From positions 112,367 through 162,829 of the forward strand of contig MELC01000041.1 in NCBI GenBank assembly GCA_001767455.1: a DNA stretch of 50,463 nt, read 5' to 3'. Below the pieces are notes generated by a model. It worked only from the letters and a program-made list of their open reading frames with translations. It was not told where the DNA came from and did no database searches. Made by a program: the position numbers and the translations under genes. Numbering within the stretch: position 1 is the stretch's first letter; each line of letters begins with the position of its first letter. Shown piece by piece: positions 1,291 through 34,939 of this stretch. Source of the DNA: Acidobacteria bacterium RIFCSPLOWO2_12_FULL_66_21. GTDB lineage: Bacteria; Acidobacteriota; Vicinamibacteria; Vicinamibacterales; 2-12-FULL-66-21.

Positions 1291-1308
1291 AGCCTGCACC
1301 CCCCGGAC

Positions 1309-2658: not shown

Positions 2659-2670
2659 ACGATAAGACAA

Positions 2671-6984: not shown

Positions 6985-8801
6985 GCACGGTGGCGGGCCT
7001 CTTGGCCACCCTGTCGAAGACGCCATCGTACGCCGAGGTTCAGCGGGTCGGCGGACAGCTTCTGGAGTTGGGCCAGCCTCCGACCGGATGGGCGAGCGCT
7101 GCCACCATTCGAATCGGAATCGTTTCGTCCTTTACGGCGGCGCCGCTCGCTCCACCGCTGGCTGTCGAGTGTCATCGACTCGGCATCTGGCCCTCGGTGT
7201 ATGTGGGCGGCTATGGCCAGTTCCGCCAGGAAGTACTGGACCGCGACAGCGAGCTCTATCGCGGCGAGCCGGACATCGTGTTTTTGATCGCAGAGCTCGA
7301 GGCGGTCGTGCCCGTGGAGGACGATTCGCGAGCGCCGGCCGCCATCGTCAACAGGGCTGTGGCCGAGTTGGTGACGCTCGTGGACGCGTTCAAGTCACGG
7401 TCTCAAGCGCTGCTGGTCTTGTTCGATTTCAATGTACCAGTGCGATTCCCGTTCTCAATCGGGACGGATCCCTCTGGAGTACTGCATCAGGAAGTCAATG
7501 CCAAGCTGAGGGAGGCGCTCGCAGGAGATCCACAGGTTCGCATATTCGCGTATGACGCCTTATGTGCTCATCACGGCAAGGAACGCAGCAGCAACGCGAA
7601 GATGCGCCGCTTGGGTGATATCAGGATCAGCGACTCGCTGCTACCAGCGGTGGCGCGGAAATGCGCGGGATATGTGCGCGCGTTGAAGGGGATCGTGGCG
7701 AAATGCCTGGTGCTGGACCTCGACGGCACCTTGTGGGGCGGCACCGTGGGCGAGGACGGCCCGCATGGGGTTCGTCTTCAGGATAGAGGCTCCGGTAGCG
7801 AGTACTACGAGTTTCAGCGTGCCATCGCGGAGCTCCGGCGACGCGGTGTTCTTCTGGCAGTGAACAGCCAAAACCACATCGAGGACGTACGGCCGATTCT
7901 GCGTGATCATCCGTACTGCGTGCTTCGTGAAGCGAGCTTCGCTGCTGTACGCGTGAACTGGCTCGACAAGGCCGTGAATCTTCGCTCTATCGCCGAGGAG
8001 CTTGACCTTGGCCTCGACAGTCTCGTCTATCTGGATGACGATGCCGTTCAGCGTGCGTGGATCCGGCGGGCGCTCCCGGAGGTGGCCGTCTACGACCTGC
8101 CCGACGATCCAGCGGAGTACGTTGCGTTTCTGTGGGAACTGGTCGACTTCGAGAGCCTGACGGTCACGAACGAAGATCGGGCGCGCGCCAGCTTGTATGC
8201 CGACGCCCGGAAACGAAAGGATCTGGCGGCAACGGCTCCAAGCCGCGAGGACTTCATCGCCAGCCTGTGCGTTCACCTCGTCATCGGCCGCATGACGGAG
8301 AGGGAAATAGGCCGCGTGGCGCAGCTGACGCGGAAGACGAATCAGTTCAACCTCACAACCAGGAGGTACAGTGATGCGGAAATAGCAGCGCTCATGCGGC
8401 GCCCGAACATGCTGATCTATACGCTGGAGGTGGCCGATGTTTTTGGTCACTGCGGTTTAGTGGGCGTGATCATCATCGAAGTACGCGACGACCGCGCGGC
8501 AATCGACACATGCCTCCTGTCGTGCCGCGCGCTGGGCCTCCGCATCGAGCACGTATTCCTGGGCGAGGTGGCTGAGGACGTCAAGCGGGTTGGTGTGAAG
8601 ACGCTGACGGGTGAGTACCTGCCGAACAACAGGAACAGCGCCGCCGCGACGTTTTTCGAGAGCTGTCACTTCCAGCAGGCGGGTGAATCTTGCCTCGGAA
8701 GGAGTCGTTGGATGCTGTCTCTCGTCCAGTGGCACCATGATCGGTCCGCCCTGCATCGAGTCACGTGGAGAAACGAGGATGACAGAGGGCAGTGTCTATG
8801 A
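6969..8801 (+). CDS. FkbH-like HAD-superfamily protein
   Basis: A 610-residue FkbH-type protein. Residues 1-230 form an SGNH-like N-terminal region, residues 245-400 the HAD domain with the nucleophile pair Asp250 and Asp252 in LVLDLDGTLWGG, and the C-terminus a GNAT-like domain with FGHCGLVG and LLSCRALGLRIEHVFLGE. Family members load a D-glyceryl unit from 1,3-bisphosphoglycerate onto an acyl carrier protein. The gene starts with GTG inside the GNAT gene and its TGA overlaps the ATG of an ACP, so the three are translationally coupled. The inference is that an ACP-bound hydroxyacyl group, possibly glyceryl, is made here and transferred to a sugar. Confidence 0.9.
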   Translation: MEATLSTVAGLLATLSKTPSYAEVQRVGGQLLELGQPPTGWASAATIRIGIVSSFTAAPLAPPLAVECHRLGIWPSVYVGGYGQFRQEVLDRDSELYRGEPDIVFLIAELEAVVPVEDDSRAPAAIVNRAVAELVTLVDAFKSRSQALLVLFDFNVPVRFPFSIGTDPSGVLHQEVNAKLREALAGDPQVRIFAYDALCAHHGKERSSNAKMRRLGDIRISDSLLPAVARKCAGYVRALKGIVAKCLVLDLDGTLWGGTVGEDGPHGVRLQDRGSGSEYYEFQRAIAELRRRGVLLAVNSQNHIEDVRPILRDHPYCVLREASFAAVRVNWLDKAVNLRSIAEELDLGLDSLVYLDDDAVQRAWIRRALPEVAVYDLPDDPAEYVAFLWELVDFESLTVTNEDRARASLYADARKRKDLAATAPSREDFIASLCVHLVIGRMTEREIGRVAQLTRKTNQFNLTTRRYSDAEIAALMRRPNMLIYTLEVADVFGHCGLVGVIIIEVRDDRAAIDTCLLSCRALGLRIEHVFLGEVAEDVKRVGVKTLTGEYLPNNRNSAAATFFESCHFQQAGESCLGRSRWMLSLVQWHHDRSALHRVTWRNEDDRGQCL

Positions 8802-9049: not shown

Positions 9050-10810
9050 ATGCCTCAACGCCTCCGAATGCAGATAAGAAGAATGGGATGCATTGTGGCA
9101 TTGAAGGCGTATAAGGCTGCCCGTTGGTTTCGGATACGCGCGTACGGACTGTTTCGCCGAGTCATTCCCATCCCGCTGTCAGTCGACCAGCAGGAATTTC
9201 TGCAGGCTAACGCAACCTTTTGGCGGGCTCTTTCCAACGGCAACGAAGGAGGAGACCGAGCAGGGTATGTGCTCGTCCCGGTGGAGAATCATCCTATTAT
9301 TTGCATGAGCGATGCGTCCTTTGCATCCATTGTCGCCCGCGCCAAGCACTTGAGAATGCTTTTTCTCGTCAACGCCCAACCGACGAGTGTGGCTGCGCGC
9401 CTGCTGGAATCCTATCCAGACGCCACACTCGTCTATCGCCGCGGATGGCGCTACCTCTTCGTGAAACTATTGGCACTCCTGCCGGCGCTGAGGGCGTATC
9501 GCAAGATCAAGACGCCCGCCGATCTGCTGCACTTCCGGGTGGACGGCGTCCGTTTCGGCGATGCGATCTATGACGCGGTGTTGGCGGGCGGATACGCCAC
9601 CGTGAATGCCATAGATCGTCGGGTCCTGTGGACGTTGTGGGAGTTCTACTTCCTGCGTCTCGTCATCGAGGATGTGATCGGACGGTATCCGATCCGGACC
9701 GCCGTATTGGCTCATCTGGTCGGCCTGCCAGGCTCGACCATTAGCCGGCATTTGTTACGGCATGGCATTGAAGTGCTCAGCCGGGTCGGTTCACATCAAA
9801 TCCTGATCAAGCGGTACCGCTCCCTAGTCGATGTGGGGATCTACCCGGCCAAGCCGGAGCGAGGTTACTTCGAGCTGATGATGGCGAATGAGGACGGCAG
9901 CATTCTGCGACCGGCCGAAGAGTACATCGAACGTCGCTTTGATCACGACGTGGACGATGTGGCTGCCGGGCTCGCCTTCAACGCGGCGAAAAGGACCTTC
10001 AGCGATCGGCAGTCGTTCTGCGCTCAATACGGGCTGGATGTCCGTAAGCCCGTCGTCTTCGTGATGCTGCATGCGTTCAACGACTATCCTCACTCGCATT
10101 TCGCGAGGCCGATGATTTTTCAAGACTACTATCATTGGTTCATGCGAACTCTGCAAATCGCGAAGATAACCGATGACGTTAATTGGATCTTCAAAGATCA
10201 CCCCGCTGCCTGGTTCTATCCAACCAAGGATCTGCACGTCGAAGCGCTCTTCGCTCAAAACAGGTACAACCACATCCGGTTCCTCAGGAGCGATGCAGAT
10301 TTCAACGCTCGCTCACTCCGGCATCTGGCCCACGCAGTGCTGACCTGCATCGGCACGGCGGGCCTCGAGTACGCCACGGTCGGGATTCCATGCGTGCTGG
10401 GGGGCGAGAGCGCGTACAGTGGCTTTGGATTCACGATCGAGCCGGAGGACGAACATGAATACGAAGCATGTCTGAAAAACATCCGGGCGCTGAAGCCTCT
10501 AAGCGGCGCACAAGTCAAGGCCGCCAAGATCGTGGCATACTTCTATTTCTGCATATTGCAGGGGGCGGTGTATCACTTCTGCCCATACTTTAGCGATGAC
10601 GAGGTGTCAAAGTGGAACAAGGCGAGTGACAACAGGCTGTGGAGGCTCCTTGTTGCCCAATTGCGTAATGAACAGCATGTCGACTTGATGCGAAGGCAGG
10701 CGGGGAGGCTGAGCGACTTTATCCTCGACCCATCTTGGACTCAATACGTGGATCTAGAGAAATTCCCGTTCTTGAGACCGAGCGTGCCCGCAAGGAGTTT
10801 TGGCGGGTGA
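9050..10810 (+). CDS. Large GT-B-like protein, capsule-synthesis type
   Basis: A 586-residue protein. The C-terminal third resembles the capsule polysaccharide (KpsS/poly-Kdo transferase-like) GT-B domain: NWIFKDHPAAWFYP, then VLTCIGTAGLEYATVGIPCV and SGFGF, the pattern where a nucleotide-sugar donor is held by 'T..GTA.LE....G.P'. The N-terminal half shows basic and hydrophobic stretches but no clear signal peptide, and I do not recognise its family. The ATG at 9050 follows a possible ribosome site (AAGGTAA). It probably transfers a sugar in the cytoplasm; donor and acceptor are unknown. Confidence 0.6.
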   Translation: MPQRLRMQIRRMGCIVALKAYKAARWFRIRAYGLFRRVIPIPLSVDQQEFLQANATFWRALSNGNEGGDRAGYVLVPVENHPIICMSDASFASIVARAKHLRMLFLVNAQPTSVAARLLESYPDATLVYRRGWRYLFVKLLALLPALRAYRKIKTPADLLHFRVDGVRFGDAIYDAVLAGGYATVNAIDRRVLWTLWEFYFLRLVIEDVIGRYPIRTAVLAHLVGLPGSTISRHLLRHGIEVLSRVGSHQILIKRYRSLVDVGIYPAKPERGYFELMMANEDGSILRPAEEYIERRFDHDVDDVAAGLAFNAAKRTFSDRQSFCAQYGLDVRKPVVFVMLHAFNDYPHSHFARPMIFQDYYHWFMRTLQIAKITDDVNWIFKDHPAAWFYPTKDLHVEALFAQNRYNHIRFLRSDADFNARSLRHLAHAVLTCIGTAGLEYATVGIPCVLGGESAYSGFGFTIEPEDEHEYEACLKNIRALKPLSGAQVKAAKIVAYFYFCILQGAVYHFCPYFSDDEVSKWNKASDNRLWRLLVAQLRNEQHVDLMRRQAGRLSDFILDPSWTQYVDLEKFPFLRPSVPARSFGG

Positions 10811-10835
10811 GTCACTCAGAAGAAACTGCCGGCCG

Positions 10836-11672
10836 ATGCAACTACAGGCTATGAAGCTCTGTGTCCCCTTGAGCGACGCCTTCCGGATACGCCAAGACGC
10901 GTTGTTGCCCATCGTAAACGCTATCAGCTTCAAGCGCCCGGGCCCAGAGCTCTTTCGGGGCAAGACCCACTTCCTCGAGTGCTCGTACAATATCGCGGAC
11001 CCGGACCTCCCTACAGCACTCGAACGCTCGGGATTCCTGACAGCGCTGAAAAGCGGCAAGTACACGTCATTCGCGTGCGACATCGGACCCAACTGCGAAT
11101 TCGTGGCGGTCTACACCGCCAACGGCCTACCGCGCTCCGCGCCGGCGTCAAGCCTGGTCTCCGACGAGGAGTATCTGGAGCGGTGCGCGAGAAACGCGGA
11201 GTGGTTGCGAGGCCACTTCTCGGGCTACATCCAACTGGAGAATCTGAACTACTTTCCCACAGGGGCGTACGAGCACGTGTGCGAGCCGGCCTTCGTCCAC
11301 CGGATCGTCGAGTTCACCCGCATCCCACTGCTGCTCGATGTGGGCCACGCCATGGTCAGCGCCCACTACATGGGCTATCGCGAGCCGATGGACTATATTC
11401 GCGAGTTACCCCTGAAGGGAATCCGCGAGGTCCAGTTGAGCCGAGCCGGCATGCTCAATGGAATTTTTGAAGACCTTCACGAGCCACCTGGCGAGAGCGA
11501 GCTCGCGATAGTGGAAGCGCTGACAGCGCTTGGGGCGCCTATCCAATACCTCACCGTCGAGTACTACCGCGACGCCGCGACCCTCTTGCAGGTTTATCAA
11601 TCCCTGGCCAAACGTGTGACCGAAGACGGCGTGAGGACCGAGATCGTGACGATCCATGATGAGCGATTTTGA
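10836..11672 (+). CDS. DUF692/MNIO-like TIM-barrel protein
   Basis: About 278 residues. Several stretches match the multinuclear iron oxidase family formerly DUF692: IQLENLNYFP (family 'ENVSSYL'), LLLDVGHAMVSAHYMGY (family 'LLLDVNNVYVNA.N.G'), VQLSRAG (family 'IHLAGH') and DLHEPPGESELAIVEAL (family 'DTHG.PV....W'), then the TVEYYRD strand. Some metal-ligand positions are altered, for example Ser/Arg where the family has Gly-His. A xylose-isomerase-like sugar isomerase is the alternative. ATG 10836 is used; ATG 10851 gives MKLCVPLSDAF. No RiPP precursor or partner protein is visible, so its role in a sugar cluster is open. Confidence 0.65.
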   Translation: MQLQAMKLCVPLSDAFRIRQDALLPIVNAISFKRPGPELFRGKTHFLECSYNIADPDLPTALERSGFLTALKSGKYTSFACDIGPNCEFVAVYTANGLPRSAPASSLVSDEEYLERCARNAEWLRGHFSGYIQLENLNYFPTGAYEHVCEPAFVHRIVEFTRIPLLLDVGHAMVSAHYMGYREPMDYIRELPLKGIREVQLSRAGMLNGIFEDLHEPPGESELAIVEALTALGAPIQYLTVEYYRDAATLLQVYQSLAKRVTEDGVRTEIVTIHDERF

Positions 11673-14931: not shown

Positions 14932-14998
14932 ACGGGGACGGTGGCGTGCGGAGTGAAAACGGTCCTCACCGCCTCACGGCCTGTCCATTGGGGCGAGG

Positions 14999-15597
14999 AT
15001 GAAGACAGCGCCCCGCGATTTCACCAGCATCACCGAGTTGCCGGGAGGGAGGGCGACGCGGGAACAGTTATCGATGATTCGCACCCGCTACGACGAGGCT
15101 GCGAAGCGCGCGGCCGGAAAGCGCGTCCTCGAAGTGGTGTGCTGGCCCGACATGCGTCGTTCGTCGTGGGTGGCGACATCACACTCGACCTCGTTCGCCG
15201 CGCTAGGGCACACTATCCGCGATTGCTCGAACGTCTTGCAGATGAACGCGCGGGGGATGCCGTTCGCGAACTCCAGCTTCGATCTCGTCGTGCTGTTCGA
15301 GGCCCTGTACAACCTGCCCGACGCCGAGTTGTTCATGTCGGACTGTCGGCGGGTGCTCAGCCCGGGAGGAACGGTTCTGCTCAGTTCCGTCAACCCGGAG
15401 TGGCGTGGCGGCTCGCCGAGTCCGATGAGCACGCGGTACTTTTCCGTGCTGGAACTCGAATTGCTGCTTCGGCGCCACAGCTTCGAGCCCGAGCCTTCGT
15501 CCAGGAGATCTTCACGGGGCTGCTATTCGTCAGTCGCCCTCGATACATGCAGTGGATGAAGCAAGCCGAACAGCGGTTTCGTCAACTGCGGATCTGA
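14999..15597 (+). pseudogene. Frameshifted SAM methyltransferase
   Basis: The methyltransferase is spread over two frames with three switches. Frame A (from ATG 14999) gives the N-terminus to GKRVLEV. Frame B supplies FVVGGDITLDLVRRARAHYP (about 15160-15225). Frame A resumes at NVLQMNARGMPFANSSFDLV and runs through EALYNLPDA and LSPGGTVLLSSVNPEW. After about 15490 frame B again gives AFVQEIFTGLLFVSRPRY and ends at TGA 15595-15597. Each frame alone loses conserved motifs, so the gene is a pseudogene or contains sequencing indels. The joined protein would be a ~199-residue type 11 methyltransferase with a plausible continuous motif order. Confidence 0.72.
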
Positions 15598-19730: not shown

Positions 19731-20608
19731 TGAGAGTCGTCATTACCGGATGCGAGAGCTTCATCGGCCGCGAGCTCATCAAGCAATGCTGTGTGAGCGG
19801 CATCCAATACGTCGGCATCGATGTGTCGGCGTGTTCGGCGGCCGGCCATATCCCTATGGATATTCGTTCGCCGGACATCGATGAGGCGATTCCGACCGGT
19901 GCCGACGTTCTGATCCACCTTGCAGCGATATCGCGGGACGAGGATTGCCGCAGAGACACACTGGCGGCATTCGACGTAAACGTCGGCGGCACGATGAACC
20001 TGATACGCGCGGCCCGCGCGCGCGCCGTTCGCCAGTTCGTGTTCGCATCCAGCGAATGGGTCTATGGCGAAGTGGCGAATGACGCCAGCCAGTCCGAAGA
20101 GGCGGTCATCGACGTCAACCGGATTTCCTCGGAGTACGCGCTGACCAAGATCGTCGGCGAACGCACCCTCACCCTTGCCTTCGCCGGCGGTCCATGTGCG
20201 GCGACGGTCTTGAGGTTTGGGATCGTGTACGGGCCGCGGCTGGCGAATTGGTCCGCCGTTGAAGCGCTGTTCGATGCAGTCGCGACGAAAGACGTGGTGG
20301 AAATCAAGGGATCGGCGCGAACCGCCCGGCGCTTCATTCACGTAACCGACGTGGCCGCCGGGATCCTGGCGGCGCTCGGTCGCCAGGGACATGAGACGTT
20401 CAATCTTTCAGGGGACACGCTTGTGTCTCTGGGTGACATCATCAAGGAAAGCGCGGCGATCCTGGGCCGATCTCCGAAAGTCGTTGAACGCGATCCGTCG
20501 GCAATCAGTATTCGTAATCCTTCGAATACCAAAGCCCGCGACGTACTCGGATGGCGGCCGGCCATCGGCTTGAGGCAAGGCTTGATGACGCTGCTGCCTG
20601 CAAACTAG
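19730..20608 (+). CDS. NAD-dependent epimerase/dehydratase (extended SDR)
   Basis: A 292-residue extended SDR. The NAD motif is VVITGCESFIGRE, unusual in having Cys-Glu in place of Gly-Ala. The catalytic set is FASSEWVYG and SSEYALTK. RRFIHVTDVAAGILAAL and FNLSGDTLVSLGDII are typical nucleotide-sugar SDR elements. ATG 19730 overlaps the stop of the methyltransferase remnant. It lies directly upstream of the thiamine-dependent E1 alpha gene, so it could prepare the 4-keto sugar that the E1 pair or the lost C-methyltransferase used. Confidence 0.86.
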   Translation: MRVVITGCESFIGRELIKQCCVSGIQYVGIDVSACSAAGHIPMDIRSPDIDEAIPTGADVLIHLAAISRDEDCRRDTLAAFDVNVGGTMNLIRAARARAVRQFVFASSEWVYGEVANDASQSEEAVIDVNRISSEYALTKIVGERTLTLAFAGGPCAATVLRFGIVYGPRLANWSAVEALFDAVATKDVVEIKGSARTARRFIHVTDVAAGILAALGRQGHETFNLSGDTLVSLGDIIKESAAILGRSPKVVERDPSAISIRNPSNTKARDVLGWRPAIGLRQGLMTLLPAN

Positions 20609-20613
20609 AGACG

Positions 20614-21534
20614 ATGACTCTGAGAGCACCGCGGATGCAGGGAAAGAGCCTGGAGCTGGCGAGAAGGGTGTTGCGGTTGCGCTACTGGCAGTTGCTCATC
20701 AATGAAGACCTGAAACAGAAGCTCTTTGTCGTTCCCGTTCATTGCGCCATCGGCCACGAAGCGATCGCGATCGCCGTCAGCGACTCGATGGGGCCCCTGG
20801 ATCAGCTTGTCCTCTCCCATCGGAATCTCGCGTACAACCTCGCGCGAGCCGACGGACTCGACGGCATCCGCGATGAGTTCCTCCACCGCGGAGCCGGCCT
20901 CTGTCACGGTCATCTCGGATCGATGAATCTCGTGAATCGGGCGCGCGGCATCGTATATTCATCCAGCATTCTCGGCAACAACATTCCGGTTGCCTGCGGA
21001 TTCGCGCTCGCCAAGCAGGTGCGTGGATTGGGCGGCGTCGTCATCGTTCTCACCGGTGATGGGGCGATGGAGGAAGGGCCCTTTTATGAGGGTCTCGTGT
21101 TTGCCAAGTCTCACAACTTGTCCCTCGTGATCGTGGTCGAGAACAACAATCAGTCCATGGCGTCGACAATCAGCGAGCGCCGGTGCTCGATTTCACTCGC
21201 TGACCTGTGTCGGTCCTTGGCCATTCCCTTCGCCACGCTGTCGGGCAACGATGTCATGGATTACACCGTGGAGGTCAAACGCCTGGCAGAGCGGGCAACG
21301 GATGCGTCGACACCGGTGTGCCTGGAGGTCCATTTGGCCGCTCTGAATCAACATGCGGGCCCCACGCCCGGATGGCCAACCGATCCGAAGACGATCAGCA
21401 TCGACAACGGGCTGACCGTCGAACCGACCACCAGCGACCCCGTGTTTGTCCTGCGACGCCAACTGGGGCCCGATCTGTTCGACGAATTGATACGAGAAGT
21501 GACACCGGGACCGGCCCAGTCATCGCGTGCCTGA
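20614..21534 (+). CDS. Thiamine-diphosphate-dependent E1 component, alpha subunit
   Basis: A 306-residue E1-alpha-like protein of the pyruvate/2-oxo-acid dehydrogenase or split transketolase type. The thiamine-diphosphate motif runs from LTGDGAMEEGPFYEG to VVENNNQSMAS (about residues 147-180), and GLCHGHLGSMNL and SSILGNNIPVACG are family elements. ATG 20614 is chosen; the frame upstream overlaps the SDR. No E2 or E3 genes are nearby, so it is not a normal dehydrogenase complex. Avilamycin-type and branched-sugar pathways use such pairs to add a two-carbon unit to a keto sugar. Its beta partner is at 25278, displaced by an insertion. Confidence 0.85.
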   Translation: MTLRAPRMQGKSLELARRVLRLRYWQLLINEDLKQKLFVVPVHCAIGHEAIAIAVSDSMGPLDQLVLSHRNLAYNLARADGLDGIRDEFLHRGAGLCHGHLGSMNLVNRARGIVYSSSILGNNIPVACGFALAKQVRGLGGVVIVLTGDGAMEEGPFYEGLVFAKSHNLSLVIVVENNNQSMASTISERRCSISLADLCRSLAIPFATLSGNDVMDYTVEVKRLAERATDASTPVCLEVHLAALNQHAGPTPGWPTDPKTISIDNGLTVEPTTSDPVFVLRRQLGPDLFDELIREVTPGPAQSSRA

Positions 21535-21660: not shown

Positions 21661-24231
21661 GTGACCGGAAGGATGATCGGTTTCCTCAAGCCTGCACGTC
21701 GCAATCCAGCCATTCTGTACGGAGTCGTCTGTGGCTCGGTCTTGAGTTCCGCCTGGATACTCCGATCATCCAGGCCGATTCTATTCCCACAGTCTACCAT
21801 CCTCCAGTTTACACTCGTCGCGGCATGGATCTGTGTAGCTGCGGTACTCGCGGTTCGGTGTCTGATTCGACGCTGGGCTCAACCCTCGGGCCGGCCAGCA
21901 ACCTCGCTGACGGCCCTCGTGGATGTTCTGACGATACTGGGCTTTATCCTCTTGTCGATGCGCTCCTTCAACACCGCCTCGCGAGCTTCGTTGAATACTG
22001 AGAGCTACAGAAGTTGCGGCGCTCCGACCGATGACTTCGATGGCTATACGACGTTGGCGTTGTACTTTGCAGGCAAGCCTTATTATGGCTTTGAAGAGAC
22101 GAGGCGCTTCAAGATCACGCCTGGATATAGTCCCTTTTTGACGCGAGTCACAGTAGCCTTCAGCCCAGGGAGCAATCTCCTCGCCTCGGCGGGCGGCGAC
22201 GGGATGTTGAAGTTCTGGACGCCCTCGAATCACACACTGCTCGGTCCTACGCATCAGTCGGAGACCGGGCAGGGCGGTATCACCAGGATTGCATTCACTG
22301 AGGACGGCTCTGAACTCGCTGTCGCGGGCCGAGACGGGTCGGTCGTTTTCTATTCAACAAAGACCTTCTTGCCGATCCGCCATTTTGCGACTCATCACGC
22401 GCATATCACAGCAATGGCGCTCAGCCCGGACGGTCGACATGTACTCACCGGTGGCTTTGAAGGCACCATTCGTCTATGGACAAAGGACGGCATCCCAGCC
22501 AGCGAGCCGCTCTGGAAGCATGAAGGATCGATCACCGCCGTTGACTTCAGCCCGGATGGGGACTTGTTTGCGGCATCCAGCTCAGACTGGCAGGTATCCC
22601 TCTGGAGGAGAGACGGTACGTTCGTGGCGATTCCAGGCCACGATCGGACGGCTATTTCTGGGATCTCTTTCTACCGCCCGGATCGGTTCGCGGCGAGCCT
22701 GGTTGGAGGCGGAACCCTCGTCTGTACCTCTCAGGGAGAGCACTGGGGCTGTGAACACCGCGGTTCCAGACACACTGCAGCAACTGCCATTGCCGTCTTC
22801 CCATCGTCCGAAAGACAAGCAACAGGCAGCGGGGTCGGGACGCTCGACGTGCAGGATCCGGACCGAGAGCCGCGAGTCTTTCCGGTTCAAGGCGCCGCCG
22901 TGACGAGCCTGGTGTTCACCTCAGCAGATGAAGTCGTCACTGCAGGCCGGAATGGAAGACTTGTCGTAACCAACCTGACTTCGGCCGAGAGCCCGGTGCC
23001 TGTCGCGGCGCACCGAGGTTTTGTGCCAGGGCGAGATCAATTCGGTTTGCCTGATTACGTTCGCCAGCCTGGATATCCGTATCTCCTATATCTCTACATG
23101 CGGCTGACCGGCGCTTATAACTCGTGCGCCGCGCTCATAGTTCAACCGCTTCTACTACTTGCGTTTGTCTTAGTCGGCCTCATTTGGATGCGGATGACGT
23201 TCGGATCCTTCCATGCTTTCTTCGCGCTACTTCCCCTGCTGGACAAGTCGAACTGGGCCTATTGGGCTGCGACCATCGATATGACAGAGTTTACTCAGGC
23301 CTTGTTCTATCCCGTCATGATCCTGCTGTTCATGGTTGCGTTGTTCAGGCCGAAACGACGAGCAATAGCTCTCTTTGGCTGGACTTTAGCGCTCTTGATC
23401 ATAAGCCAGGTAAAGGTACTGGTGAGTATGTTCTTTGCCATACTGGTGGGAACGAGCGCGCTATGCATCGCCGTCCGTGCGATTGTGCGGCGGGACTATC
23501 ATGAGCTAAAGAACCAGCTCATGTTGCTTTGCGCGATGGGAGTGCTGGCAGCTCTTTGCCCGTTGGTCCTCGGCGTTCTTCAGCCAGAGCCAGCGTTATT
23601 CAACCAGCGCAACGTCTGGCGAAAGCTACTTTCGGTTCCGGTGACCAAAACGGACGATGCTCTACTCTTGCGCTACAAGGACTTTCAGGCCTTCCTCGGT
23701 AGGCGCCATGAAAGACTTACGGGACAAAGCGATCCCGATCACCTCGTACCGCCAGGTGAAATCGAGGATGAGATCGCGTTGGCAAGCAGCATGGACGAGC
23801 TAGCTGTTGTCGATCCAGAAAACCGGGTAGTCTACAAATTCTCAACGCAGGAGTATGCACGGCTGGCGCATGAATTGCCCCGTCAAAACCCGCGCGGATT
23901 CCTCAGACGGGCAATCACCGATCCGAGAAATCATCGATCTACTATTCTGCTCGCGTCGCCGCTGACGATCTATCCTATGATTCGTCTGATCTGGCTGATT
24001 GGCTTGGGATTGGGATTCATTGTCTTGTGCTCAAATTACGGCTGTGCTGCTTGGATGAGTTTCTTGTCGATGGCGATCTTCGGGTTGTTCCTTGCCATCT
24101 TTCATTTTCTTGACGTAAGGTACTGGGTCCCCTTCTCTTTCATCTATTACTTCACGTTCGGTGCCGGCTACGACGGCCTCGTTCGCAAGGCGATTGAAAG
24201 ATGGTCTGTTGCGAGTCGCCAAGAGGCCTGA
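21661..24231 (+). CDS. GT-C-like membrane protein with an inserted seven-bladed WD40 propeller
   Basis: An 856-residue protein. Three hydrophobic segments (about residues 17-38, 48-68, 82-98) are followed by DDFDGYTTLALYFAGKPYYG, a GT-C-like first-loop motif with acidic residues. Residues ~160-440 are seven WD40-type repeats, each starting V/I-T-x-hydrophobic-x-F and carrying SPDG and IRLW-type strands. After them comes GLPDYVRQPGYPYLLYLYMR, which resembles the R-x-PGYP element of GT-C glycosyltransferases, and then about eight further membrane segments. The propeller thus sits inside the large loop between segments 3 and 4, probably outside the cytoplasm. GTG 21661 or ATG 21673 starts it. 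GC is lower than the flanks. Function is inferred only: lipid-linked sugar transfer. Confidence 0.72.
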   Translation: MTGRMIGFLKPARRNPAILYGVVCGSVLSSAWILRSSRPILFPQSTILQFTLVAAWICVAAVLAVRCLIRRWAQPSGRPATSLTALVDVLTILGFILLSMRSFNTASRASLNTESYRSCGAPTDDFDGYTTLALYFAGKPYYGFEETRRFKITPGYSPFLTRVTVAFSPGSNLLASAGGDGMLKFWTPSNHTLLGPTHQSETGQGGITRIAFTEDGSELAVAGRDGSVVFYSTKTFLPIRHFATHHAHITAMALSPDGRHVLTGGFEGTIRLWTKDGIPASEPLWKHEGSITAVDFSPDGDLFAASSSDWQVSLWRRDGTFVAIPGHDRTAISGISFYRPDRFAASLVGGGTLVCTSQGEHWGCEHRGSRHTAATAIAVFPSSERQATGSGVGTLDVQDPDREPRVFPVQGAAVTSLVFTSADEVVTAGRNGRLVVTNLTSAESPVPVAAHRGFVPGRDQFGLPDYVRQPGYPYLLYLYMRLTGAYNSCAALIVQPLLLLAFVLVGLIWMRMTFGSFHAFFALLPLLDKSNWAYWAATIDMTEFTQALFYPVMILLFMVALFRPKRRAIALFGWTLALLIISQVKVLVSMFFAILVGTSALCIAVRAIVRRDYHELKNQLMLLCAMGVLAALCPLVLGVLQPEPALFNQRNVWRKLLSVPVTKTDDALLLRYKDFQAFLGRRHERLTGQSDPDHLVPPGEIEDEIALASSMDELAVVDPENRVVYKFSTQEYARLAHELPRQNPRGFLRRAITDPRNHRSTILLASPLTIYPMIRLIWLIGLGLGFIVLCSNYGCAAWMSFLSMAIFGLFLAIFHFLDVRYWVPFSFIYYFTFGAGYDGLVRKAIERWSVASRQEA

Positions 24232-24487
24232 ATCTCATGGTCGACGGCTGTGGCTGGGAGAGGCGCGCGTGCGTGAGGACAGGTCGTTCGTGTTTACTGA
24301 TCAGCTGGGCGCTGATCGCCTCGTGGTACTTCGATCGTGGGTCGAGGGTTCAGTGACGGCGAAGGTCAGGATTGCTTCCCCGCAAGCTCGGCCCGGATTG
24401 AGGTACGAGCACTCGATGGGCGAGGGAGCCAATGAGGGCCTGCCCACGTACCTCCTCTCCCTGCCTTCCGGAGATGCTCTCTCGTGA
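24232..24487 (+). other. Short unidentified frame, possible C-terminal remnant
   Basis: After the WD40 protein's stop, one frame stays open and reads LWLGEARVREDRSFVF, VVLRSWVEGSVTAKVRI and EGLPTYLLSLPSG before TGA 24485-24487. That stop overlaps the GTG of the GT2 gene. The alternating hydrophobic pattern suggests a beta-rich domain. GTG 24269 could start a ~72-residue protein. Because the coupling overlap is present but no start domain is, it may be the tail of a truncated gene. I do not recognise the family. Confidence 0.4.
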
Positions 24488-25200
24488 AGCTCACCGTTCT
24501 TGTTCCCGTCCACAACGAGGAATCGACGATCATCCAGATCCTGGAACTTGTTCGGACGCAACAGATTGCGGACGTCGAATTAGAAATCATCGCCGTGGAC
24601 GACGGGTCCACTGACCGTACTCCTGAGCTGTTACGGTCACGTGCAGAACTCTATTCCAAGATGATTCGGTTGGAGCACAACGGTGGAAAGGGAGCCGCCG
24701 TTCGGGCAGGCCTGGCGGTGGCGACCGGCGAGTACGTTTTGTTTCAGGATGCCGATCTGGAATACGACCCGGCCGAGTATTCGAAACTCGTGCGTCCCGC
24801 CATAAAGTATGGTGCCGACGTTGTCATTGGCAGCCGGACCCTGGCGCCGTCGTGCCGGAGGATTCACTATTTGTGGAACAAAGTTGGGAATGGGCTTGTC
24901 ACGTTCACGTTCAATTGTCTGTTTAACACGACCTTCTCCGACACATATAGTTGCTACTTGATGTTCCGCCGGGGCCTGGTTCAACCAGGAGCGCTCCGGA
25001 GCCAGGGGTTTGACCAGCAGGCAGAGATTCTTGCCAAGTGCGTCAAGCGAGGCAAAGTATTTTACGAGGTGCCCATCGACTACCACGGCCGGACCTATGC
25101 CGAGGGAAAGAAGATTCACACTTGGCACGTCGCCGGTGTGATTTGGACTATGTGCCGTGAGCGATTCAGCTCTGCGGGCCCTCGACGATTCCGCACCTGA
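24484..25200 (+). CDS. Family 2 glycosyltransferase, DPM1/GtrB-like
   Basis: A 238-residue GT2 of the dolichol/polyprenyl-phosphate sugar synthase type. The motifs are VLVPVHNEESTI, VDDGSTDRTPELL, GGKGAAVRAGL, the metal-binding DADLEYDP and GSRTL, and the C-terminal VPIDYHGRTYAEGKKI that is typical of DPM1/GtrB. There is no C-terminal membrane pair. Such enzymes make polyprenyl-phosphate sugars, the donors used by GT-C membrane transferases, so a functional link with the WD40 membrane protein upstream is plausible. GTG 24484 overlaps the upstream stop. Confidence 0.88.
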   Translation: MKLTVLVPVHNEESTIIQILELVRTQQIADVELEIIAVDDGSTDRTPELLRSRAELYSKMIRLEHNGGKGAAVRAGLAVATGEYVLFQDADLEYDPAEYSKLVRPAIKYGADVVIGSRTLAPSCRRIHYLWNKVGNGLVTFTFNCLFNTTFSDTYSCYLMFRRGLVQPGALRSQGFDQQAEILAKCVKRGKVFYEVPIDYHGRTYAEGKKIHTWHVAGVIWTMCRERFSSAGPRRFRT

Positions 25201-25221: not shown

Positions 25222-25413
25222 CGATCTGTTCGACGAATTGACACGAGAAGTGACGACGGCGCGCGCCGAGCCATCGCATGCCTGACTACATCACCGCCGT
25301 GAACCAGCTCATCGTCGACCACGCGTCGAGGATGGCGGGTGCGGTGCTGTACGGAGAGAATATCAAAAGCGGGTCGCGCATCTCCGGCCTGACGAAGAAC
25401 CTGCGGGCCCCTC
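25222..25413 (+). repeat. Duplicated E1 alpha/beta junction, copy 2
   Basis: Bases 25222-25277 are the last codons of an E1 alpha gene (CGATCTGTTCGACGAATTGA and onward) without the rest of that gene. They lead straight into the intact E1 beta start at 25278. The match to 21471-21654 covers about 185 bases with small differences. The alpha fragment has no open frame of its own, so it is only the scar of the duplication. Confidence 0.85.
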
Positions 25414-26246
25414 AGGCTGGACGGATCCTGAACGTTGGCAACTGCGAGTCAACCCACTGCGGCGTCGGGTTCGGATTGATGATGGCGGGGGTCCCGGCGA
25501 TTCTGTTCGTGAAGCAGCTGGATTTCATGCTGCTGGGAATCGACCACTTTGTCAGCACGTACAACGTGGTTCGAAGCCATCCGCACCTGGATGACCTCGG
25601 AAGCTTCACGATTATCACGATCGTCTGCGATCAGGGGTGGCAGGGTCCACAGTCCAGCTTCAACGCGCTCGGGGATCTGTGCTCGCTGGCGCGCGTTCCC
25701 GGCTACAGCATCACCAACGCTCAGGATACGCGGCACGTCCTCGAACGGCAGTTGCCATCGCCCGGGTTTCGGATCATCGCGTTGAGCCAGCGGTTGTTTT
25801 CCACGGAGTTTCTCGAACCTCCGCTGGTGTACGCGGCCCACGACTCATCGGTGTTTCAGTACACGGCCGGAGACGACGTCACGATAGCGTGCTTCAATTT
25901 TGCTTTTCCACAGGGACAGATCCTCTCGGATAAGCTCGCCGCTTGCGGAATAACCGCTGACCTGTTTTCAATCAATGCCGTCGTCAATCCTGATTGGACG
26001 AGAATCGTCGAGAGCGTCGCGCGAACCAAGCGCATCGTGCTGATCGACGACACTAAGGGTGCTAGGACCGGATGTGACGAGCTGCTGCGGAGCCTGGCGC
26101 TGCCAGTCTGCGGTCACGACGCCATCGTTGTCACGAGACCGGCGGATATCCCGCTCGGCGTGTGCCCTGACTCGCTGGACATCGACTACGAGCGTCTCAT
26201 TGCGCAATTGGGCCGGCCGAACATCAGAGGGCGTGTCACCACATGA
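25278..26246 (+). CDS. Thiamine-diphosphate-dependent E1 component, beta subunit
   Basis: A 322-residue E1-beta-like protein. GRILNVGNCESTHCGVG corresponds to the conserved glutamate region that activates the thiamine ring in the alpha partner, and FVKQLDFMLLGIDHF matches the 'Q..DF....DQI' element. The C-terminal transketolase domain follows (TIACFNFAFPQG, RIVLIDDTKGARTG). It is the intact partner of the E1 alpha at 20614, and the two were adjacent before the insertion. The ATG start aligns with the remnant GTG at 21527. It probably forms a heterotetramer that transfers a two-carbon unit. Confidence 0.84.
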   Translation: MPDYITAVNQLIVDHASRMAGAVLYGENIKSGSRISGLTKNLRAPQAGRILNVGNCESTHCGVGFGLMMAGVPAILFVKQLDFMLLGIDHFVSTYNVVRSHPHLDDLGSFTIITIVCDQGWQGPQSSFNALGDLCSLARVPGYSITNAQDTRHVLERQLPSPGFRIIALSQRLFSTEFLEPPLVYAAHDSSVFQYTAGDDVTIACFNFAFPQGQILSDKLAACGITADLFSINAVVNPDWTRIVESVARTKRIVLIDDTKGARTGCDELLRSLALPVCGHDAIVVTRPADIPLGVCPDSLDIDYERLIAQLGRPNIRGRVTT

Positions 26247-28555: not shown

Positions 28556-29395
28556 ATGCCAGGAGCCAGAAGTCGCGAAGAGACCCGCCGCACGCTTCGC
28601 ATACTCCGGTATCTGTGCTGCGGCCGCCGGCCGTGGTCGGTTGGCTACGACGAGTTCAAGCGGCTGCGGCGAGTCCTCCGGGATCGCGTCGTGCTGGGCT
28701 GGTTCCGCGCCGTCGACGCGCTCCCGCGCGGGTACAGCCGCCGACTCGATGAGCGGGTGATCGAGTACCCGTGGCTGGTGGCGCGGCTGGGCGAGGGCCG
28801 GTCGCTTCTGCTCGACGCCGGCGGGGCCCTGAACCATGGTTTCCTTCTAAAATCGTCCGCGCTGCGGCGTCGCACGATGGTCGTCTGCACGTTGTCGAAC
28901 GAGCGGCCGACGGCAGGCACGCACGCGTCCTGCGTCAGAGCCGACTTGCGTCGCGCCGCCTTGAAGGACGAGGTCTTCGACGAGGTCGTCTGTATCTCGA
29001 CGCTGGATCACGTGGGGCTGGACCAGACCCGTGTGTACTTGTCGGACGAGCGGTGGCGGGAGTCGCACCCCGAGGACTACACCGGTGCGGTGCGCGAGTT
29101 GCGGCGCGTTCTCAAGCCTGGTGGTCGCTTGTTCGTAACGGTGCCCTACCTCCGTTACGAGAACCTGGGCTGGATGCAGCAGTTCGATGCGGAGCGGCTG
29201 GCGCGGATTGCAGACGTCTTCGCGCCGGCGTCGTACACCGCGACTTTCTACCGGTGTTGCGCGTCCGGGTGGCAACTGTCCGACGCGGCGGAGTGTTCCA
29301 CCTGCGCTTACTTCGACATCCACACGACGCGTCAGTACGGCGAAGACTACGCGGCCGCGGCCCGTGCCGTGGCGTGTCTGGAGCTCGTCACGTGA
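28556..29395 (+). CDS. SAM-dependent methyltransferase, paralog B
   Basis: A 279-residue paralog of the methyltransferase at 13365. The shared elements are RRPWSVGYDEFKR, GYSRRLDERVIEYPWLVARL, FDEVVCISTLDHVGLDQT, LKPGGRLFVTVPYLRYEN and a C-terminus EDYAAAARAVACLEL. As in paralog A, the SAM loop is degenerate (LLDAGGALN). ATG 28556 is used; TTG 28547 is an alternative. A decayed third copy (3' part) lies at 31501-31726. The 115 bases upstream hold no gene. It is probably a sugar methyltransferase. Confidence 0.8.
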   Translation: MPGARSREETRRTLRILRYLCCGRRPWSVGYDEFKRLRRVLRDRVVLGWFRAVDALPRGYSRRLDERVIEYPWLVARLGEGRSLLLDAGGALNHGFLLKSSALRRRTMVVCTLSNERPTAGTHASCVRADLRRAALKDEVFDEVVCISTLDHVGLDQTRVYLSDERWRESHPEDYTGAVRELRRVLKPGGRLFVTVPYLRYENLGWMQQFDAERLARIADVFAPASYTATFYRCCASGWQLSDAAECSTCAYFDIHTTRQYGEDYAAAARAVACLELVT

Positions 29396-29649
29396 GCGTT
29401 ACCGTGGGGATCGTCGCGGACTATTTCAGAGACAACACAGTAGCGGGAGCAGAAACCGCAGTGCTTCGCAGTGGGGCACGCATGTTCTCGGAATACCGCC
29501 CGTCGATCTATCTCGCGCTACACGCCGAGCGCCAGCGCAACGAATGTCGCTCGCCGCTGAACGGATGGGGGTATCGATTGTTCTCGCTAGAGAAGAAACT
29601 CGGACTCGGACTCGATTCGAGCAGCGAGTGGTTGACGGAGCCCGCCTGA
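29392..29649 (+). pseudogene. Chimeric remnant: GT4 start joined to FkbM methyltransferase tail
   Basis: GTG 29392 opens MSVTVGIVAD, identical to the start of the intact GT4 at 31723, and then homology ends. From about 29440 the frame reads AGAETAVLRSGARMFSEYRP, ALHAERQRNECRSPLNGWGY and stops at TGA 29647-29649, which matches the C-terminus of FkbM methyltransferases. The 85-residue frame is therefore a fusion of two gene fragments across a recombination joint. A functional product is unlikely. Confidence 0.75.
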
Positions 29650-29672
29650 AGCCCAATTCAAGAGGCCGGGAA

Positions 29673-30389
29673 GTGACGATCAAGCAGCGGGCGGGCCAAT
29701 GGCTATTTCCGAGGATGCCCATCACGCGTTTCCTGTTCGAGCAGCTTCGTGTGGAGGCGAATGCGATTTGGGTGTCGCTGGGCAATGCCACCATTCCTGG
29801 GCGTCGCCGCCTCCTCAAAGAAATACGGCGCGGTCGCGATTTACGCGTCAACATCGCATGCGGCCCGCGCATCCTCCATGGCTTCATCAATATTGATCTA
29901 TACCCTTTGGATCCCGCCGTCGTGAGATGGGACTGTCGTTGGGATCTTCCCCTCGCAGACTGCAGTGCCGCGGGCATTCGGGTGGAACAGTTTCTCGAAC
30001 ACCTCGAAACTCGCGAGGAACTGCCGACTTTCCTGAAAGAGTGCCTTCGCGCACTGCGGCCGGGAGGTGTTCTGCGGGTTATCTTGCCAGACGCCGGGCG
30101 ATACTTGCAGGCCTACTGTCGCGACGATCTTGTCGGCTTCCGTGAGCTCGCTGTACCCGACCCTTTCCCAGACGACTTGCCAACCCGGATGGACGTCATC
30201 AATCACGTCTTTCATCAGTGGCACGAGCATCGCTGTGGGTACGACTTCGAGACGTTGGCTCACCGGCTTCGAGCCGCGGGCTTCGGTCACGTCGCCCAGA
30301 TGGCGTACAAGCAGTCTCTCGACCCGCTGCTGGCTCAAGACCTGGACGAGCACGCCCCCTATTCGCTGTACGTAGACGCGGTGAAATAG
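29673..30389 (+). CDS. SAM-dependent methyltransferase
   Basis: About 238 residues. LRVNIACGPRILHGFINIDLY is a variant of the 'LNIGCG....GWINID' SAM motif of small type 11/predicted SAM methyltransferases in polysaccharide clusters. Then come EQFLEHLETREELPTFLKE, LRPGGVLRVILPDAGRYLQA and FHQWHEHRCGYDFETLAHRL, typical of that family. GTG 29673 is chosen; the open frame upstream is a shadow. It follows the chimeric remnant and precedes a glycosyltransferase fragment, so it is an island of intact gene within a scarred region. Confidence 0.78.
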   Translation: MTIKQRAGQWLFPRMPITRFLFEQLRVEANAIWVSLGNATIPGRRRLLKEIRRGRDLRVNIACGPRILHGFINIDLYPLDPAVVRWDCRWDLPLADCSAAGIRVEQFLEHLETREELPTFLKECLRALRPGGVLRVILPDAGRYLQAYCRDDLVGFRELAVPDPFPDDLPTRMDVINHVFHQWHEHRCGYDFETLAHRLRAAGFGHVAQMAYKQSLDPLLAQDLDEHAPYSLYVDAVK

Positions 30390-30393
30390 CGCG

Positions 30394-30600
30394 ATGCCGT
30401 ACGTGTTGATGGTAAGCCCCTGCTTCCCACCCGACACGAATGCGGGTGCCCATCGCGTGCGGCTCTTGGAGCCCCGCACCCGCCGCGACACGCCTGGGAG
30501 CCAACTGTCGTGAGCGTGGACCCCGCCGACTATGATGGCTTCGTGAGTTCGTCTTATTTCAACGTCTGTGCTCCGCGACTAGGGCGGATTGGCCAATACT
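30394..30600 (+). pseudogene. 5' remnant of a GT4 glycosyltransferase
   Basis: ATG 30394 opens MPYVLMVSPCFPPDTNAGAH, a typical GT4 N-terminus, and then the frame meets TGA 30511-30513. In the next frame AWEPTVVSVDPADYDG continues the family text, so there is one frameshift. After about 30550 homology ends and the sequence runs into an E1 beta copy. The start is similar in kind to the GT4 gene at 47743. The rest of the gene is missing. Confidence 0.72.
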
Positions 30601-30605
30601 CAACA

Positions 30606-31138
30606 TCGGATCGCACGCCTCCTGACTACATCACAGCCGTCAACCAGCTCATCGTCGATCACGCGTCGAGGATGGCGGTACGGTGCTGTACGGGGAGGAC
30701 ATCAACACCGGGTCGCGCATCTCCGGCCTGACGAAGAACCTGCGGGCCCCTCAGGCTGGACGAATCCTGAACGTTGGCAACTGCGAGTCAACCCACTGCG
30801 GCGTCGGGTTCGGATTGATGATGGCGGGGGTCCCGGCGGTTCTGTTCGTGAAGCAGCTCGATTTCATGCTGCTGGGAATCGACCGCTTGTCAGCACGTAC
30901 AACGTGGTTCGAAGCCATCCGCACTTGAACACCCTTGGGAGCTTCACGATCGTCACGATTGTCTGCGATCAGGGGTGGCCGCGTCCACAGTCCAGCTTCA
31001 ACGCGCTCGGGGATCTCTGGTCGCTGGCGCGCGTTCCCGGCTACAGCATCACCAACGCTCAAGATACGCGGCACGTCCTCGAACGGCTGTTGCCATCGCC
31101 GGGGTTCCGAATCATCGCGTTGAGCCAGCGGTTGTTCT
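30606..31138 (+). pseudogene. Decayed copy of the E1 beta gene, 5' part
   Basis: This stretch matches 25269-25797 of the intact E1 beta gene closely, with substitutions and indels. The start codon is lost (CCTCCTGAC where the gene has ATGCCTGAC). Frameshifts occur near 30678 and 30886, so the text moves through three frames: DYITAVNQLIVDHAS, then ISGLTKNLRAPQAG to QLDFMLLGID, then VSTYNVVRSHPHL to ALSQRLFS. At 31138 it joins directly to gmhA sequence. Confidence 0.88.
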
Positions 31139-31387
31139 CGTTGATATCAGTCAGCAGCCTCGGGCAACTCGCCGAACATCGTGCGAGCACTCGAGCTGGC
31201 CCGATCGATGCCGATGCGGGTTGTCACCTTGTCCGGAAAGGACGCGGACAACCGGTCGCGAGCGTTCGGCGATATCAACTTCTACGTTCCGTCCGGACGG
31301 TACGGCCGGGTTGAGTGCGCCCATCAGGCGATTCTTCATTTCTGGCTCGATCAGTACATGACTCTCCATCGTCAAGGTGCCATATAG
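31139..31387 (+). pseudogene. Decayed copy of the gmhA 3' end
   Basis: The sequence matches 28195-28440 with few changes, including ELARSMPMRVVTLSGK, FYVPSGRYGRVECAHQAILH and the stop. One extra base near 31157 breaks the frame with what precedes. The N-terminal catalytic half is absent. The match continues past the stop for about 50 bases into the spacer that follows gmhA at 28441, which shows that a DNA segment was copied, not just the gene. Confidence 0.88.
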
Positions 31388-34108: not shown

Positions 34109-34939
34109 TTGCGAACATTGCCGACATACTCGATCGAAAACTACAGATTTCTGCTGCGGACGGCGCTCGACCAGGGTTACCAATTCGTCGGGTTCCTCGA
34201 TCCCGACGACGGAATCGGTCGACGCATCTACCTTCGACATGACGTAGATTATTCTCTGGAAATGGCGGTTGAATTGGCGCGAGTTGACGCCGAATTCGGG
34301 ATTGCCAGTACCTTTTGCTTATTGGTTCGGTCTCAGATTTACAATTTACTTAGTAAGTTCTCACTCCAGCATGTGGACGAGATTCTCACCCTTGGCCACT
34401 CCGTCGCCTTGCACTATGCAGCCCCTGCCGTCCTCCCCAGTTCGGACGCGGAATTGGCAGCGCTTGTGTTGGAGGACTTCAGTATTGTTCAGCGAAACGT
34501 CACAGCATTGGTACTGCCGGCCTTTGCCTGGCACAACGTGACAGCCGAACTTATCAGCCGGGGCTTGAATCTGGAGATACCCGGCCTGGCGAACATCTAC
34601 GGCCGGAGCTTCATTCGTGATATTCCGTACTTTTCCGATAGCAACATGCGGTATTCGGTGGGGGAGTTCGAGGAGATCATAGGCCACGGTCGTCACCGAT
34701 CCCTACACCTGCTCTTTCATCCACTGAACTGGGTCGCTGGGGGCGGGGACATGATGCAGATTTTGGTGAGGACCTGGCCATATGTCATCCGTGAGCGGGA
34801 ACTCGACATGCGCCTAAATCGCGAATGGGCCAAATACGCCGCTACTGGAATACCAACAGGAGTGCTCGACGATTTTGTCACCGGTCTCGAGCGATCGCTC
34901 AGGAATAGCGGGCCGACGTCGCACGGAAGCCAGGGGTAG
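34109..34939 (+). CDS. Polysaccharide deacetylase-like protein
   Basis: About 276 residues. YLRHDVDYSLEMAVELARVD is like the first NodB motif (the HDVD of carbohydrate esterase 4-type proteins), followed by STFCLLVRS. The second motif appears as GHSVALHYAAP where H-x-x-x-H is usual; only a single His is clear, so metal binding may be altered. LHLLFHPLNW near the C-terminus is also family-like. It has no signal peptide, so it probably acts in the cytoplasm on an N-acetyl sugar. TTG 34109 or TTG 34118 must be the start; no ATG or GTG is suitable. GC is lower than upstream. Confidence 0.68.
   Translation: MRTLPTYSIENYRFLLRTALDQGYQFVGFLDPDDGIGRRIYLRHDVDYSLEMAVELARVDAEFGIASTFCLLVRSQIYNLLSKFSLQHVDEILTLGHSVALHYAAPAVLPSSDAELAALVLEDFSIVQRNVTALVLPAFAWHNVTAELISRGLNLEIPGLANIYGRSFIRDIPYFSDSNMRYSVGEFEEIIGHGRHRSLHLLFHPLNWVAGGGDMMQILVRTWPYVIRERELDMRLNREWAKYAATGIPTGVLDDFVTGLERSLRNSGPTSHGSQG

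Follow-up and report, generated by a model that had tools for sequence, protein, structure and literature searches.

The subject of this analysis is an open reading frame (ORF) in a 50,463-nucleotide stretch, hereafter the window, of contig MELC01000041.1 from Acidobacteria bacterium RIFCSPLOWO2_12_FULL_66_21, a genome of 6.48 Mb in 91 contigs. The ORF lies on the forward strand at 21661..24231, begins with GTG and encodes 856 amino acids (aa); because the frame stays open for 9 further codons upstream of this GTG, its exact start is uncertain. Hydropathy and Pfam give the order of its parts: three hydrophobic segments (at about residues 16-36, 47-66 and 80-100), a WD40 propeller, and a C-half that is polytopic from residue 490. 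The propeller sits between the third segment (80-100) and the fourth (490-508). A first-pass annotation, made from the sequence, had taken the protein for a GT-C-like membrane glycosyltransferase whose first loop is interrupted by the propeller. The features of the gene are listed here with the evidence for each (TM, transmembrane; JM, juxtamembrane).

21661..24231, + strand: probable GT-C-like membrane glycosyltransferase with an inserted WD40 propeller, 856 aa (ORF, Pfam, profile, alignment, topology)
21706..21855, + strand: TM1 and TM2 (residues 16-65), extra to the usual GT-C core (hydropathy)
21898..21960, + strand: TM3 (residues 80-100), which would be TM1 of the GT-C core (hydropathy)
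22030..22065, + strand: DDFDGYTTLALY (residues 124-135), DD motif and putative JM1 helix with the candidate catalytic Asp D125 (four-row alignment, low-confidence model)
22147..22980, + strand: WD40 propeller of about seven blades, residues 163-440 (Pfam, model, Foldseek; last two blades of low confidence)
22723..22752, + strand: C355 to C364, the sole two Cys of the propeller, in one predicted hairpin (strands 352-358 and 361-367), possible disulfide
23047..23085, + strand: LPDYVRQPGYPYL (residues 463-475), second half of the first loop and putative JM2 (profile match begins at residue 448; P470, Y472 and P473 conserved)
23116..23580, + strand: TM block of the C-half (residues 486-640), containing E543 and K584 (hydropathy, profile, alignment)
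23581..23961, + strand: predicted large extracytoplasmic loop (residues 641-767), long in many homologues too (alignment, topology prediction)
23962..24183, + strand: C-terminal TM block (residues 768-841) with the conserved R820 (alignment, topology prediction)

The presence of a WD40 propeller in this ORF is a signal far above chance. The Pfam model PF00400 matches with E 5e-27 and 93.6 bits, against a cut-off of 27; four stretches pass individually, and about seven repeats can be read by eye over residues 163-440. Residues 105-485 were modelled with AlphaFold2 from a 14-row alignment in which 13 rows were WD40 proteins from viral contigs, giving a mean predicted local distance difference test score (pLDDT) of 68.0 and a predicted template-modelling score (pTM) of 0.69. 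Per ten-residue block, pLDDT was 91-96 at ~205-324, 63-86 at 325-374 and 48-64 over ~375-444, so that confidence is low for the last two blades; the linkers at either end of the model fell below 50. The top Foldseek match of the model was the seven-bladed 7bie (E 8.3e-17, target TM-score 0.83). Rank 4 was taken by the WD40 domain of PkwA from Thermomonospora (5yzv), a bacterial seven-bladed WD40 domain that is part of a protein kinase, and the PkwA chains had TM-scores of 0.80-0.83. With repeats above the Pfam cut-off and matches to seven-bladed folds, the insert is, as modelled, a usual WD40 domain with two poorly modelled last blades, and the first-pass placement of such a domain between the third and fourth hydrophobic segments is confirmed. 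In the model C355 and C364 face each other across the hairpin, the pairing being taken from its strand limits; a disulfide between them is possible and would suit a location outside the cytoplasm.

Two candidate traces of how the propeller arrived were considered and dropped. Third-position GC hardly differs among the three parts of the protein (0.63, 0.65 and 0.62), and therefore gives no sign of a recent acquisition. A loop motif that appears duplicated on the two sides of the propeller (ITPGYSPFL on the N side and RQPGYPYLL on the C side, sharing the DNA GCCTGGATAT) was rejected as an insertion trace, since shuffles and real window pairs reach its score: 854 of 5000 protein shuffles did so, as did 53 of 2000 DNA shuffles and 397 of 6441 real pairs of DNA windows taken from the gene, which also has a further near copy at 21750.

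The C-half is, by profile comparison, a divergent GT-C glycosyltransferase. Its relation to the family runs only through intermediates such as L016, an ORF of another genome, and it is not a member of Pfam PMT_2 (PF13231). When the two flanks were joined without the propeller, they weakly matched ORFs of 459-523 aa in other genomes (L016, L020 and L021), aligned around RQPGYP; PMT_2 is above its cut-off in L016, L027 and L029, and not in L020. A GT-C profile was built by three rounds of iteration from L016 with the window protein excluded. Against it, residues 441-856 scored 32.3, 35.9 and 35.6 bits by round (round 3 E 2e-10, Z=1000), while the highest score in any round among 500 shuffles and as many local shuffles was 7.7 bits; set against the 35.6 bits, the best of the 500 shuffles had 6.4. 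This match upholds the first-pass assignment of the C-terminal flank; it spans residues 448 to 628 and begins just before the PGYP of loop 1. Among the 45 ORFs of the window only the 856-aa ORF scores above zero on the profile (34.0), which is a weak control because each of the others has at most three hydrophobic segments.

Homologues that have no propeller do exist, as the first-pass annotation presupposed: 24 of 28 GT-C ORFs form the rows of alignment A3 (L042, L048, L004 and L007 were left out). When the window protein is added, P470, Q495, E543, G573 and G785 are invariant over the 25 rows and Y472, P473, G484, P634 and R820 nearly so; MAFFT misplaces the window protein's N-flank in this 25-row alignment. 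The 24 rows by themselves have eight invariant columns, and the window protein keeps six of them as judged by eye (Y129, P470, Q495, E543, G573 and G785). A profile of the 24 homologues matches the archaeal oligosaccharyltransferase AglB (3waj) weakly, with E 0.0059; a four-row profile gave no match in the PDB.

The remaining half of the first loop would lie ahead of the propeller. GT-CA enzymes have JM1 and JM2 between TM1 and TM2, with the catalytic Asp at the JM1 tip (PMC12041299, PMC12041525). The first loop of TMTC proteins has a DD motif and, near the second helix, a motif ending in RP that is assigned to donor contact (PMC7801869). DDFDGY of the window protein aligns with the loop-1 motif of its homologues; a four-row alignment of the joined core and three homologues shows no variation in the columns of D125 and G128, and a low-confidence single-sequence model has a helix at 127-135, after the DD motif. 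By analogy, we infer that DD and RQPGYP fit these two places of the TMTC and GT-CA loop, which would place the propeller between JM1 and JM2. From the loop-motif D to the first P of PGYP the distance is 34 residues in L016; from D125 to P470 in the window protein it is 345.

Topology was predicted with a script that combines hydropathy and the positive-inside bias at two thresholds, and a cytoplasmic N-terminus was preferred at both (145.7 vs 33.6 and 104.7 vs 22.0). The stricter threshold gave 10 helices with the propeller loop outside; the looser one gave 12, one of them a 21-residue stretch within the propeller that we take as false. The prediction agrees with the 7-13 TM helices and the extracytoplasmic first loop of GT-C proteins. 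Applied to the 24 homologues, with a neighbouring match picked by pattern in 4 of the 24 and ORF starts left untrimmed, the same script placed the motif loop outside in 18, inside in 4 and left 2 undecided. The propeller loop is thus predicted to lie outside the cytoplasm, in line with the first-pass annotation. The annotation had further called this an unusual place for a WD40 domain; the location stands as a prediction, but extracytoplasmic WD40 proteins are known in bacteria (PMC12802301).

The same architecture was sought elsewhere, and neither the 162 genomes searched within the order nor the 396 within the phylum yielded it. Searches with the C-half matched in 1 of 60 relatives (the gene itself) and in 2 of the 162 genomes of the order (the gene itself and G254, a weak GT-C match with E 3.4e-4). 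The joined core matched in 8 of the 396 phylum genomes, comprising its own gene and seven weak matches at E 7.7e-4 to 9.6e-3; two of the seven have internal stops and L015 reads as an unrelated protein. At E<=1e-20 the propeller matched in 3 of the 396, its own genome and the loci L054 and L055, the available parts of which read as ordinary WD40 proteins. Outside the phylum the searches covered genome contigs and plasmids. Scans of genome contigs matched 10 and 21 stretches, none of which was confirmed. On plasmids 218 records matched the whole protein, none with at least 80% query coverage in one place; the best 20 of the 218 matched mainly over the propeller, and two joined places, H1 and H2, have their first matched residues at 12 and 90. 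Searches of viral contigs gave no relative, and the separate WD40 search that supplied the 13 model rows found 38 WD40 loci there.

Long GT-C frames of the order were also inspected: 20 places, chosen by eye among the matches listed, gave 21 GT-C-matching ORFs, none of which has a propeller match at E<=0.01. The GT-C match reaches loop 1 in 20 of these 21, in no case with a propeller-sized break; L073 has about 48 additional residues within the matched stretch, and L056, at 468 aa, is not long. Pfam scans of seven of the 21 found no WD40, and five carry C-terminal tetratricopeptide repeats (TPRs). Among these frames, L060 (1172-6298), L065 (2652-6716), L057 (2300-4984) and L074 (2114-5668), which measure 895-1709 aa from stop to stop, have long stretches ahead of the GT-C core, and L060 and L065 have C-terminal TPRs.

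No paper joining 'WD40' with 'GT-C glycosyltransferase' was found in a literature search that had most subscription journals outside its scope; the titles and abstract openings listed revealed no WD40/GT-C fusion, and in a survey of prokaryotic WD40 proteins (PMC5587647) a term search returned neither 'glycosyl' nor 'periplasm'. The first-pass remark that no GT-C protein with this layout has been described holds insofar as none was found, but GT-C enzymes with extra domains (PMC11127046, PMC7341804) and with a WD40 partner (PMC12802301) are in print. What the window appears to offer is an enzyme and a module that are each of a known kind, brought together at a site for which no other case was found, in a single gene and with thin evidence from the N-flank.

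Comparison with known systems shows both how familiar the components are and where they differ. With PMT_2-like GT-C proteins (the 24 homologues, e.g. L016 and L020, and AglB by its weak match) the window protein shares the TM pattern, D..GY/D...Y, RxPGYP, the E of a TE motif and a conserved R near the C-terminus; these homologues have no propeller, and keep the R(P) and PWxxxN that the window protein lacks. Mycobacterial EmbB is likewise a GT-C protein with extracytoplasmic binding domains, two extra N-terminal TM helices and an active-site DD (PMC7341804). Its extra domains, however, are beta-sandwich carbohydrate-binding modules (CBMs), the N-terminal one anchored by the two extra helices, after which the core follows (PMC7341804). 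As described there, that CBM is not inside the JM1-JM2 loop. The two extra helices of the window protein hold no domain between them. GT136 ORF12 of Citrobacter youngae, which uses a polyprenyl-phosphate sugar donor, also has an additional domain outside the cytoplasm, to which binding of the acceptor glycan is ascribed; this is a CBM located after TM11 near the C-terminus and not a propeller (PMC11127046). The extra domain of the window protein is a WD40 propeller, and not a beta-sandwich CBM of the type found in Emb, AftD and GT136. In the mycobacterial set of AftB, FecB and the WD40 protein MMAR_1667/Rv3035, a GT-C enzyme is paired with an extracytoplasmic WD40 propeller; there the propeller is a separate lipoprotein, predicted to be eight-bladed, rather than part of the enzyme chain (PMC12802301). 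MMAR_1667 and FecB were linked to AftB by co-immunoprecipitation, and a CBM-like role was suggested by the authors (PMC12802301). Eukaryotic PMT proteins have MIR domains in external loop 4 of a GT-C core (PMC12331936), and TMTC1-4 and bacterial GT-C proteins have C-terminal TPRs as binding modules (PMC7801869); in these descriptions the modules occupy loop 4 or the C-terminus, and none was found splitting loop 1.

Bacterial surface glycans are built by GT-C enzymes, which also modify lipid A and glycosylate proteins, and how they choose their acceptors is often unclear. The acceptor or partner modules found in the descriptions above are CBM, MIR or TPR domains at other sites; here a propeller appears to interrupt the loop with the catalytic residue. 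We consider it probable that the gene encodes an inner-membrane GT-C glycosyltransferase dependent on a lipid-phosphate sugar, with the WD40 propeller inserted between JM1 and JM2 of its first loop. The next gene downstream offers a candidate for the donor supply.

24484..25200, + strand: family-2 glycosyltransferase (GT2) resembling dolichol- and undecaprenyl-phosphate sugar synthases, candidate donor supplier (PF00535 E 6.5e-32; 5mlz E 1.5e-15; 9hwj E 9.1e-13)

This GT2 has no hydrophobic segments, and its closest solved structures are the dolichol-phosphate mannose (DPM) synthase 5mlz, the putative glycosyltransferase 3bcv and ArnC entries at ~1e-12. GT2 enzymes of this sort charge polyprenyl phosphate with the sugars that GT-C enzymes use (PMC11127046), and it is plausible that this one supplies such a donor to the GT-C protein. 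According to this model, the GT2 would load a sugar on polyprenyl phosphate, the loaded lipid would be flipped to the outside, and the GT-C part would then move the sugar to a glycan or protein, with D125 as the presumed catalytic base of a transfer outside the cytoplasm. No flippase gene was recognised in the window, where the other 44 ORFs have at most three hydrophobic segments each. CBMs of Emb and GT136 enzymes bind acceptor glycans (PMC7341804, PMC11127046); by analogy the propeller, adjoining the active site, most likely docks an acceptor or a periplasmic partner, and in this way would set specificity. One may also speculate, at rather long odds, that the propeller acts as a regulatory clamp and is more than a docking domain on a tether. 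Since it would join JM1 to JM2, binding of an acceptor chain or partner would shift the catalytic Asp of the former relative to the donor-side motif of the latter and so gate or meter the transfer. If so, this would be an acceptor-gated GT-C enzyme, in which glycan specificity was built by inserting a domain at the active site. A natural one-chain counterpart of the separate mycobacterial WD40-AftB pair would give a handle on the ligands and action of such propellers.

Several observations weigh against the insertion of a propeller into a working GT-C enzyme. The N-flank is the weakest step, with modest evidence. Alone, residues 1-155 score 4.1, 3.4 and 2.7 bits on the GT-C profile by round, against 10.8, 10.2 and 10.1 for the best of 500 local shuffles. 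Residues 76-175 score 7.3, 4.6 and 3.0 bits, and their local shuffles (1000 made, 790-836 reported) have 99th percentiles of 0.6, 1.4 and 1.7 and maxima of 2.9, 6.2 and 6.1, but this is not clean evidence because the stretch reaches the first blade. Joining residues 76-148 to 456-856 gives 39.9, 40.9 and 39.5 bits, compared with 30.3, 32.6 and 31.0 for the C-part alone. Adding a shuffled N part also helps, with a mean gain of 3.6 to 4.5 bits relative to the C-part by itself: such joins average 33.9, 36.8 and 35.5 bits, with 95th/99th percentiles of 37.4/40.7, 40.1/43.3 and 38.7/42.0. The real join at 148 is above the 95th percentile but under the 99th in all three rounds; a join at 144 is better, and joins at 140 and 160 are worse. 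The idea that the flanks are two halves of one loop is therefore borne out on the C side, while the N-flank fails alone (2.7-4.1 bits) and reaches the 95th-99th percentile when joined. Pfam and NCBIfam scans of both flanks found no GT-C family, and residues 441-856 have no Pfam family at E<=1 and no direct PMT_2 match; of the two halves searched separately, the C-half matches the iterated profile, but the N-flank stays below its shuffles. The window protein is also without the invariant W and the N of PWxxxN, and without the nearly invariant R of RP, which leaves room for an altered or inactive enzyme. Searches of the 162 order and 396 phylum genomes turned up no orthologue. A full-length single-sequence AlphaFold2 model of the 856-aa protein had a pLDDT of 40.7. 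In the mycobacterial precedent, tagged AftB did not co-purify with tagged FecB, for which the authors blame the tags (PMC12802301).

These points feed a number of alternatives. It is conceivable, although we think it unlikely, that the gene is a fusion in which a three-TM WD40 protein was joined to an N-terminally cut GT-C gene that had lost its own TM1 and catalytic Asp, the product serving as a scaffold or borrowing its first helix. This alternative rests on the thin N-flank evidence, the flank being no better than shuffles alone and little better when joined; moreover, the C-half match begins inside loop 1, where a cut gene would be expected to start, and two extra TM helices precede. Yet the loop ahead of the propeller has a D-x-x-G-Y that aligns with the loop-1 motif of the homologues, followed by the helix of the low-confidence model, and TM3 is placed where the core requires its TM1. 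The loss of R (RP), W and N (PWxxxN), conserved in the homologues, together with an identity of 16-20% to the 24 of them, could instead mean that a GT-C fold that transfers no sugar serves as a membrane platform displaying a WD40 scaffold for glycan enzymes. We give this pseudo-enzyme a small chance, as the DD motif, E543 and R820 are retained, a DPM synthase-like gene adjoins and K584 could substitute for the missing basic residue.

Many WD40 domains are cytoplasmic, and 4 of the 24 homologues received the opposite orientation from the script; a propeller sensing a cytoplasmic signal is nevertheless very improbable. The positive-inside bias favours the N-terminus inside and the loop outside, 18 of the 24 homologues agree (2 being undecided), loop 1 is extracytoplasmic in the GT-C enzymes described in two papers (PMC12041525, PMC12041299), and a pair of facing Cys fits an oxidising compartment. 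A chimera made in assembly, or a sequencing artefact, would explain why no orthologue turned up in the genomes searched, but there is hardly any room for it: a single open frame crosses both junctions, third-position GC is similar throughout, and the whole protein, searched against its own genome, matched the gene itself and otherwise gave only WD40 matches, all in a single ORF. Insertion into a GT-C core is, on the sequence evidence, supported as the first-pass interpretation. The outcomes set in advance as contradicting it (flanks that do not form a GT-C core, a cytoplasmic propeller, no homologues free of the propeller) did not occur, and the caveat on the N-flank stays.

The gene lies in a large glycan cluster, as read from Pfam and NCBIfam, the Pfam scan covering window ORFs up to 41508. 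It includes cytidylyltransferase, DegT and NeuB genes at 538-4785, and a heptose-type set with a nucleotidyltransferase/HAD fusion at 15625, an HddA-like kinase at 18318 and a SIS gene at 27856. Epimerases, methyltransferases and glycosyltransferases of Pfam group 1 and family 2 are also present. Rfam returned nothing at gathering scores in the window. In the stretch at 538-4785 the cytidylyltransferase, a DegT aminotransferase, an oxidoreductase and NeuB stand in a row, resembling a nonulosonic-acid set. ORFs of 218-610 aa with no Pfam match at E 1e-5 are found at 6969-8801, 9050-10810, 14941-15597, 29187-30389, 30589-31314 and 34109-34939. A homologue of the MbnB/TglH/ChrH enzymes that modify ribosomally synthesised and post-translationally modified peptides (PF05114, E 3.3e-9) lies within the cluster at 10800-11672. 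Finally, an E1 alpha-like gene dependent on thiamine pyrophosphate (20551-21534) and a weak E1 beta-like gene (25278-26246; below curated cut-offs) have the GT-C/WD40 and GT2 genes between them, as though an earlier E1 pair had been split by their arrival.

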